The notes beneath the pieces were generated by a model that saw only the letters and a list, made by a program, of their open reading frames with translations, was not told the origin of the DNA and did not search any database. The translations under genes were made by a program, and so were the position numbers. A DNA stretch of 64,000 nucleotides from Lentisphaerae bacterium GWF2_49_21. GTDB lineage: Bacteria > Verrucomicrobiota > Lentisphaeria > Victivallales > GWF2-50-93. Shown here in pieces: positions 30,754 to 58,429 of this stretch; position 1 is the first letter of the stretch, and each line of letters opens with the position of its first letter. The DNA is taken from assembly GCA_001804805.1 (NCBI GenBank), contig MHBH01000067.1, positions 35,829 to 99,828 of the forward strand, read 5' to 3'.

Positions 30754-30827
30754 AAAGTAGGTACGTGCTTTAGCATGTACCATCTTAATTCCTAAGAATG
30801 GGACAGGCTAAAGCCCGTCCCTACTTT
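30754..30827. repeat. Paired-hairpin repeat (GTACGTGCTTTAGC family, copy A)
   Basis: Hairpin GGTACGTGCTTTAGCATGTACC followed by GGGACAGGCTAAAGCCCGTCCC, flanked by AAAGTAG and CTACTTT. Reverse-complement relatives: 41491-41558 and 58188-58315, the last with further elements in both loops. Confidence 0.8.
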
Positions 30828-41461: not shown

Positions 41462-41581
41462 GTAGTAGCGCATGTTTGCGCGTTCTTACAGTAGGGATGG
41501 GCTTTAGCCTGTCCCATTCTTAGATTAGGATGATACATGCTAAAGCACGTACCTACTTAACGCGCAAACATGCGCTACTAC
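41462..41581. repeat. Nested palindrome: 23-bp inverted repeat enclosing paired-hairpin copy B
   Basis: Outer arms 41462-41484 and 41559-41581 are perfect reverse complements (ends GTAGTAGCGC/GCGCTACTAC). They enclose 41491-41558, a copy of the 30754 family (GGGATGGGCTTTAGCC, then ATGCTAAAGCACGTACC). The convergent gap 41288-41653 holds nothing else except the promoter above. Confidence 0.8.
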
Positions 41582-44365: not shown

Positions 44366-44955
44366 AGCTTTTCCTTTGATTCACGTGGGAGGTACGCGCA
44401 TACATTAAGCTGTATGATGAGGCCCTCCCGGTAAATATTTTGGACTTTATGTAGCATTGAAAATAGTTCAGAACCGGTGAAAAAGCAAGAAAAACACTCT
44501 CATTCATCCACCTTCGATATTCTGTCTCCGTTTGTAGCCTGTCCGCCATAGCTTCTTAGCGACGGCGGATCAAGCTCGCAAGAGTTGTTCTTGATTATCG
44601 GAGCGCTGGCACTTGTCTTGGCGTAGCATCTTAGCGAAGCCAGATCTCGCCGGCAACTCTTACCAATGTAGCACAGGCGTCTCGCTTGTAATTAAGTTCC
44701 AAGTTCCAAACCTCCAAATTCCAGACAAGCTCCAGTATTCAAACAAAGAAATTTCCAAACTATACACGTAAACAATTCAATCAAGAACATCCGCCTTGGT
44801 GGATTAACTACAAACGAATTCATAGGAATCTCCCTTTGTGCCTCCGTGACTTTGTGCGAGAATGCTTTTTCTTCAAGATTTCTACATAGCCTAACCCGGG
44901 TTAGGTATAGCAATGTCCGGTCATTATCGAGCGTTATAAAAATCACCAATACTCC
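44366..44955. other. Repeat-filled intergenic region without a convincing gene
   Basis: Holds GTCCGCCATAGCTTCTTAGC (44542-44561) with its GACGGCGGA partner, a CAAGAGTTG/CAACTCTT inverted pair (about 44580-44663), GGCGTAGCATCTTAGCGAAG (44624-44643), a degraded CACAGGC hairpin (44673), a CCAAGTTCCAAACCTCC tract (44698-44714), a CTTTGTGCC-type element (44836-44866) and the perfect palindrome CCTAACCCGGGTTAGG (44891-44906). ORFs across it translate repeats. Confidence 0.6.
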
Positions 44956-58122: not shown

Positions 58123-58315
58123 GTTGGAGTCCAAACTTTAGTTTGTCTTGATTTTGCTGGTAGCAGCGCAATTAATTGCGCGTTCTTAAAGTAGGGACGG
58201 GCTTTCCTGTCCTGAGCTTGTCGAAGGAAGCCTGTCCCATTCTTATGGTCAAGATGGTACATGCTTCCGCCGTCGCAAAGAAGCTATGGCGGACACGGGA
58301 AGCACGTACCTACTT
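58123..58315. repeat. Compound repeat with elements inserted in hairpin loops
   Basis: 58123-58150 is a TTGGAGT..CAAACTTTAGTTTG hairpin of the 32229 family. GCGCAATTAATTGCGC follows (58166-58181). 58188-58315 is a copy of the 30754/41491 family in which the first apical loop carries CCTGTCCTGAGCTTGTCGAA (about 58206-58228) and the second carries CCGCCGTCGC...GCTATGGCGG (about 58267-58298). Confidence 0.8.
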
Positions 58316-58429
58316 GGAGTAACGGCGTATAAATTCGCCGACAAATTCCTGACCGCAAACACCAAGATCAGCGACAGCATCGTCGACAAGCTGATCAGCA
58401 TGGGCGGAAACAACAACGCGGCCGAATGA
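58316..58429 (+). pseudogene. C-terminal remnant of a lost gene
   Basis: In-frame stretch GVTAYKFADKFLTANTKISD continuing IVDKLISMGGNNNAAE and a TGA at 58427, with protein-like composition but no start. It begins right where the compound repeat ends, so the 5' part was probably lost at the repeat boundary. No match among neighbouring genes was noticed; family not recognised. Confidence 0.4.

Follow-up and report, generated by a model that had tools for sequence, protein, structure and literature searches.

Elements of 23 and 33 nt in the apical loops of several REP families of a Lentisphaerae genome

Introduction

In a 64,000-nt stretch of the Lentisphaerae bacterium GWF2_49_21 genome (hereafter "the window"), one copy of an inverted hairpin repeat carries additional sequence in both of its loops. 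How do such short elements come to lie at the tips of another repeat, and what might have put them there? A first-pass annotation, made from the sequence alone, had proposed that two different elements were inserted at the loop tips, leaving the stems undisturbed, by a mechanism acting on folded DNA in the manner of HUH/RAYT enzymes. To our knowledge there is no settled account of the movement of REPs and of similarly small repeats. The small dispersed repeats of cyanobacteria treated by Elhai in 2008 are said to be very small mobile repeats in bacterial genomes, like the two elements considered here.

Results

The composite at 58191-58313 is an inverted pair of hairpins; in each, GTAG stands at the outer foot and the stem is 9 bp long (Table 1). 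Loop 1 reads GGGACGGGC-TTT(CCTGTCCTGAGCTTGTCGAAGGA)A-GCCTGTCCC and loop 2 reads GGTACATGC-T(TCCGCCGTCGCAAAGAAGCTATGGCGGACACGG)GAA-GCACGTACC, the inserts standing in parentheses; both elements proposed earlier are present, one of 23 nt (58206-58228) and the other of 33 nt (58266-58298). They are called the G and C elements below, and their host here family A. The family-A stems are GGGACGGGC/GCCTGTCCC on the left and, read from its own end, GGTACGTGC/GCATGTACC on the right, and the empty tip is TTTA or TTCA; the two window relatives previously taken as intact do read with TTTA at their tips. On DNA folding, empty hairpins form a 9-bp stem with a 4-nt loop and filled ones a longer stem.

Table 1. 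Positions of the repeats and inserts in the window (plain numbers), and of related genes, hosts and sites elsewhere in the genome (contig:position).
Feature	Position	Strand	Remarks
Left arm of host REP pair (family A)	58191..58238	+	GTAG at 58191-58194
Left-arm stem, window copy	58194-58202 / 58230-58238	+	tip residue TTT 58203-58205 and A 58229
G element, 23 nt, CCTGTCCTGAGCTTGTCGAAGGA	58206..58228	+	left tip, between TTT and A
Spacer separating both arms, ATTCTTATGGTCAAGAT	58239..58255	.	common to paralogue L063
Right arm of host REP pair (family A)	58256..58313	-	GTAG at 58310-58313, minus strand
Right-arm stem, window copy	58256-58264 / 58302-58310	-	
C element, 33 nt, minus strand CCGTGTCCGCCATAGCTTCTTTGCGACGGCGGA	58266..58298	-	right tip, between TTC and A
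Outer REP hairpin left of family-A pair	58160..58190	+	GTAG, GCGCAATTAATTGCGC at 58166-58181, then GTTCTTAA
Outer REP hairpin right of family-A pair, GGCGTATAAATTCGCC	58324..58339	-	CTAC end lost
Family-D hairpin, empty, GTTGGAGTCCAAAC TTTA GTTTGTC	58123..58149	+	other members of the family have the C element at the tip
Family-A REP pair, empty	30754..30827	-	TTTA tips
Family-A REP pair, empty	41491..41558	+	TTTA tips; inside outer REP pair 41462-41484, 41559-41581
Y1_Tnp gene	C9:37025-37336		family-A hairpins directly on both sides; Pfam match
RAYT gene	C20:82k		flanked by family D
RAYT gene	C32:183.6k		flanked by a relative of family D
RAYT gene	C32:8k		flanked by GTAGCGCATGTTTGCGC
RAYT genes	C67:22.8k, C43:33.8k		flanked by E types
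Y1 gene	C32:36.8k		flanked by GTAAGGCGGGCTTTCCAGCCCGTC
Host family A			13 G, 33 C; assigned by sequence in the insert-based census
Host B1, TGTCGGG../..CCCGAC			6 G, 4 C
Host B2, GGCGGTTT../..AAACCGCC			3 G
Host D, GGAGTTCACAGC.. and relatives			4 C
Host E, CACAGGCGAGA../..GCCTGTG and relatives			5 G
Unrelated 12-bp hairpin	C77:703		1 G
C sites with half a host hairpin	C53:9263, C67:28747, C42:59402, C35:16021		
E sites with opposite orientation	C5:148591, C72:49630		CTAC visible

The REP composite is directly followed by a gene remnant (58340-58429; 3' end, ..KFLTANTKISDSIVDKLISMGGNNNAAE*), and it is at the junction with this remnant that the CTAC end of the right outer hairpin is missing. 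At the orthologous site of the congener G001, an intact gene of about 300 codons, with no REP, follows a creatininase gene and precedes a trpF-like gene, the next conserved one; the composite in the window therefore marks the deletion of most of that gene. Having no REP, the G001 site is uninformative on the tip inserts alone.

Filled and empty copies could be compared as paralogues within the one genome, the direction of change being inferred from majority state and recurrence. A paralogue of the window copy (L063, C30:7860-7960, against L107) has the same spacer and flanks, with TTTA and no G element at its left tip. A second pair is formed by L048 (C17:11.7k), whose right arm carries a C element, and the empty L081 (C43:48.8k, with a TTCA tip); apart from the insert the two have 140 of 148 nt in common, and their comparison fixes the right-tip C junction. 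A target site duplication, the mark of a MITE moved by a DDE transposase, is absent from these filled/empty pairs.

Searches of the 5.9-Mb, 91-contig genome with the exact outer ends of the pair gave 68 and 70 matches, against 0-1 for the reversed control; these controls rule out a chance origin of the pattern. The stretches around the matches yielded 198 readable family-A arms, of which 159 have a 4-nt tip and 37 are filled, in every case with a G or a C element. The 12 tips of 27-28 nt all contain a G element and the 21 tips of 36-38 nt all contain a C element; three further arms have a C element with its partner strand damaged or missing, and one more, L133, is chimeric across a C tip. The insert lies between the third and fourth loop nucleotides, with no target duplication: the third base, T or C, varies among empty copies and this variation is kept when they are filled (TTT|CYG.., TTC|CCG..), so the junction is TTY|A and no bases are duplicated. 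Neither element was found within a stem in any of the 198 arms, which bears out the proposal that insertion spares the stems; the test named in the first-pass annotation, which took insertions spread along stems and flanks as a refutation, thus did not refute loop targeting. The tips of the same 198 arms contain no inserts other than G and C, and none of the genome's other REP families; the trait thus belongs to G and C.

Family A has the form of a GTAG REP, with GTAG, a 9-bp stem and a loop (a TTYA tetraloop when empty) in 198 arms; the arm pattern itself included GTAG, but a BLAST search, too, returned copies with an intact foot. Ninety-six pairs are inverted with GTAG outward, the REPIN/BIME arrangement. 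Of these pairs, 31 lie inside a second, outer pair of GTAG-outward REPs (58160-58339 and 41462-41581 in the window), which together with the tip inserts makes three levels of nesting. An insertion pure and simple does not account for the outer nesting: the 26-nt spacer of the five empty outer pairs is not just interrupted in the filled ones but has given way to other sequence.

Starting instead from the inserts, the genome has 62 matches to the G element (up to one mismatch) and 64 to the C element, against 0-1 for controls, as befits high-copy imperfect palindromes. Flanks were obtained for 48 G and 64 C sites, joined and folded, and a site counted as a tip where 7 or more base pairs closed the apical loop holding the junction. 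This was so at 28 of the 48 G and 38 of the 64 C sites, well above background (p < 1e-20). When the junction is displaced by +2 to +6 nt, the tip count drops to 1-4 (G) and 2-3 (C); a shift of -2 nt still scores high because the loop is that wide. The loose fold criterion has a background of 11-14%, and a stability threshold of -5 kcal/mol yields the fairer figure: 25/48 G and 31/64 C against 2.95% of window positions. With identical stem contexts collapsed, 18 of 41 G and 16 of 49 C contexts are at tips (p 3e-17 and 4e-13, respectively). Since family-A flanks base-pair among themselves, a shuffle control came out too high, and the shift control and window background were used in its place. 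About 40% of the G and C sites in the genome have no recognised tip.

One C element in the window (44540-44569) lies off a tip, with GTTTGTAGC on one side and a REP (TCAAGCTCGCAAGAG..) on the other; the genome has four more sites that resemble it, making this a second recurrent context.

Among the hosts assigned by sequence (Table 1), families A, B, D and E and the C77:703 hairpin all have different stem sequences. The junctions observed are TTT|A, TTC|A, GAGA|C and AAGA|T, with 5' sides CTTT|, CTTC|, GAGA|, AAGA| and TTTT|. The sequence TTT|A fails as the sole target rule, since inserts occur as well at the GAGA|C and AAGA|T junctions of E-type loops; such a rule may hold for A, B and D, which have TTYA loops in common. 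Each host loop has a fixed insert orientation. This orientation is uniform with respect to GTAG in A, B and D, and opposite in the E sites with a visible CTAC, so the choice of strand is not simply set by the tag. The sharp peak at the unshifted junction, together with recurrence in two further species and in hairpin families unrelated to one another, upholds the loop-targeted insertion proposed from the single window copy.

What are the inserts themselves? The inserted strand of both runs TGTCC...GGA with 2-3 unpaired bases ahead; the 5' tags are CYTGTCC and CYGTGTCC, and GTAG is absent. The G element alone folds weakly, and the C element is an imperfect palindrome with an unpaired 5' tag. 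One mismatch in the C stem is kept by change on both sides (A.C in 30 of 64 copies, G.A in 29) and a second is invariant (A.G, 64/64): the keeping of a non-standard mismatch suggests that the irregularity itself is recognised. E. coli TnpAREP requires a bulge in the stem (PMC8266576), to which the C mismatches bear a resemblance that is suggestive at most.

The genome has 20 Y1_Tnp matches. Host families flank their own RAYT-type Y1 genes (Table 1), and a gene with its own hairpin family on both sides is the REPtron arrangement of TnpAREP (PMC8266576, PMC6006769); the hosts are thus REPs. A RAYT dedicated to G or C was sought and not found: by pattern scan none of the 20 Y1 genes is flanked by either element (17, all but L138, L142 and L145, were also read through frame and flanks), and among 119 stretches from other genomes no Y1 gene was seen near a G element with a motif scan that misses 3 of 12 known ones.

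Around the family-A RAYT gene, single family-A hairpins are arranged in tandem at 40-41-nt spacing (C9:35.5k-44.4k, L155). Two RAYT-like genes, at C67:22.8k (L146) and C76:60.2k (L143/L144), have in-frame repeats, with TGVSPV/TGRRPV near both ends and a repeated SRAGARRSQEEMEI.

In the congener G001 there are 297 matches to the family-A tip pattern, and nine fills read by eye comprise eight C and one G, most of them in family-A arms. Another congener, G002, has a C element in a family-D-like hairpin, GGAGTCCAGCC-TTT|A-GGCTGTC, and no match to the family-A pattern. Among 388 genomes searched in the phylum, none outside the genus has the tip-filled C pattern; a looser C pattern does find matches in other genera, and in G004 one such match (L358) occupies an E-type loop.

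The G element is present in many bacterial phyla, where its link to tips is weak. Of 127 sites outside the genus, 15 (12%) are at a stable tip against a 3% background (p = 6e-6), and a looser test places 37 at tips against a shuffled mean of 22 and maximum of 32. Loop targeting was accordingly rejected as a universal property of G, the foreign tip share being just 12%, far below the rate in the present genome. The clearest signal among the 127 sites is of G inside another G-like element (13 sites: 5 inverted and 8 direct, against shuffled means of 0.8 and 1.7). A 22-nt core, CCTGTCCTGAGCNNGTCGAAGG (L210-L328), has a very wide phylum range, isolates included, and is sometimes found within another CTGAGC..GTCGAAG-like element or its inverse.

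Discussion

On balance, we consider it probable that the G and C elements are non-autonomous, REP-like mobile hairpins that insert into the loops of resident REPs. Miniature elements of 23 and 33 nt would thus enter, precisely and with no target duplication, the apical loops of families A, B, D and E and a few others, most likely while the host hairpin is single-stranded, for example on the lagging-strand template. The joining may be done by an HUH Y1 enzyme (RAYT or IS200-type) working on single-stranded DNA, and the host's own RAYT might then copy filled REPs onward along with the host REP. The simplest account is that the elements enter single-stranded DNA at a loop, which explains the tip, the indifference to stem sequence and the absence of duplication, and also why the orientation is fixed for each host. 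We regard loop targeting as well supported; for the catalytic step we infer HUH/RAYT, an HUH Y1 enzyme being the first suspect because REP enzymes act on folded single strands.

The earlier appeal to HUH/RAYT enzymes therefore stands in part. It holds for the hosts, which are REPs with cognate RAYT genes, and is conjectural for enzyme action on G and C themselves: these are without GTAG and flank none of the 20 Y1 matches, they have no common target tetranucleotide (the fixed tetranucleotide 5' of the element expected of the IS200/IS605 type is replaced by varying junctions), and in other phyla G is mostly off hairpin tips.

Some filled copies, notably right arms with an identical C insert (seven in one stem context), are probably copies of one event, and RAYT-driven spread of the near-identical right-arm C-filled REPs is likely. 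Independent insertions are accordingly well below the number of filled tips; by our count, at least a dozen combinations of host family, arm and insert remain. A more specific proposal, which we hold to be somewhat less likely than not, is that elements of 23-33 nt target a structure rather than a sequence, strand-specifically and about 1 nt before the 3' side of the apical loop, and ride with RAYT-copied REPs.

Recombination between hairpins clearly happens as well. In one chimera (L133, C89:12.3k), the 5' half of a left arm is joined through a C tip to the 3' half of a right arm, and at four C sites there is only half a host hairpin, broken exactly at the edge of the C element; REP pairs in general are mosaic. 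Could tips then have been exchanged by gene conversion or template switching between homologous stems, with no insertion of a unit at all? This we consider unlikely: conversion requires homology and cannot create the first filled tip of each family, the same elements with the same ends occur in stems sharing no sequence (A, B, D, E and C77:703), and the host loop bases are kept on both sides of the insert.

Another possibility is that G and C insert anywhere, and that only insertions at tips leave a recognisable, copyable REP, a few of which are amplified by RAYT. The many identical right-arm C copies would fit such a bias among survivors, as would the roughly 40% of sites off tips and the location of the family-A RAYT among its own hairpins. 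We nevertheless regard it as distinctly improbable, in view of the census that took the elements rather than intact hosts as its starting point: about 60% of sites are at tips (about half with the stability cut) against 3-5% of window positions, and the enrichment persists after collapse to distinct stem contexts. Survivor bias would also have to supply each of the dozen or more host-family, arm and insert combinations, and it has trapped no other REP family in the tips of the 198 family-A arms.

It is barely credible that G or C tips were the original state of REPs and that a precise deletion in the loop gave rise to TTYA, even if the filled form is itself a stable hairpin and deletion of an inner palindrome is a known type of replication error: parallel origins would have to be assumed for two different inserts, each with fixed ends, across several unrelated families, G and C also occur away from host hairpins in this genome (and G in many phyla), and TTYA is the majority state.

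If G and C are indeed mobile hairpins entering REP loops, how do they compare with known systems? The GTAG REPs and REPINs with their RAYT/TnpAREP proteins in E. coli, S. maltophilia and P. fluorescens (PMC8266576, PMC3116915, PMC2817692) are like the present hosts, with which they share a GTAG 5' foot, a 9-bp stem, a short loop, inverted pairs and hairpin-flanked Y1 genes. G and C differ from them in having neither GTAG nor a flanking RAYT, and in being located inside the loops of other REPs. With CGTC REPs (Di Nocera 2013, PMC3733652) they share the short palindrome, the unpaired 5' tag and the lack of a dedicated transposase found, and they contain TGTC, a listed CGTC variant; the stems of CGTC REPs, however, start with A-T pairs, their loops are of 4-5 nt and their tails are CCA, and G and C fit none of these in stem start, loop or tail.

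Short repeats within other palindromes have been noted briefly in T. roseum, A. variabilis and H. neapolitanus (PMC3733652). In T. roseum, GTAG-23 lies in small palindromes, the target palindrome being present in hundreds of copies, and in A. variabilis dimers of GTAG-15 lie in long palindromes; in both, unlike G and C, the insert bears GTAG, the host is not reported as a REP, and the descriptions include neither filled and empty counterparts, nor a range of host families, nor a rule for the junction. Like G and C, the insertion sequences IS1397, ISKpn1, IS621 and ISPsy8 target REPs, and ISPsy8 does so at the point about which a predicted REP hairpin is symmetrical (PMC1525189). These are full elements, belonging to IS3, IS110 and other families and each having a transposase of its own, as against 23 and 33 nt here, and ISPsy8 makes a 3-bp duplication, whereas G and C make none. 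Insertion of ISs in REPs, once at the hairpin axis (PMC1525189), and repeats within palindromes (PMC3733652) are thus known already; for elements of 23-33 nt in the loops of several REP families, with both filled and empty copies, we found no report in the open-access literature searched.

Several REP families, their RAYT genes and two inserts that mark loops together provide a natural record of insertion in folded DNA. The host hairpin, the insert and the junction are defined substrates with which a resident enzyme could be tested, and the presence of the G element in many phyla makes the question a general one.
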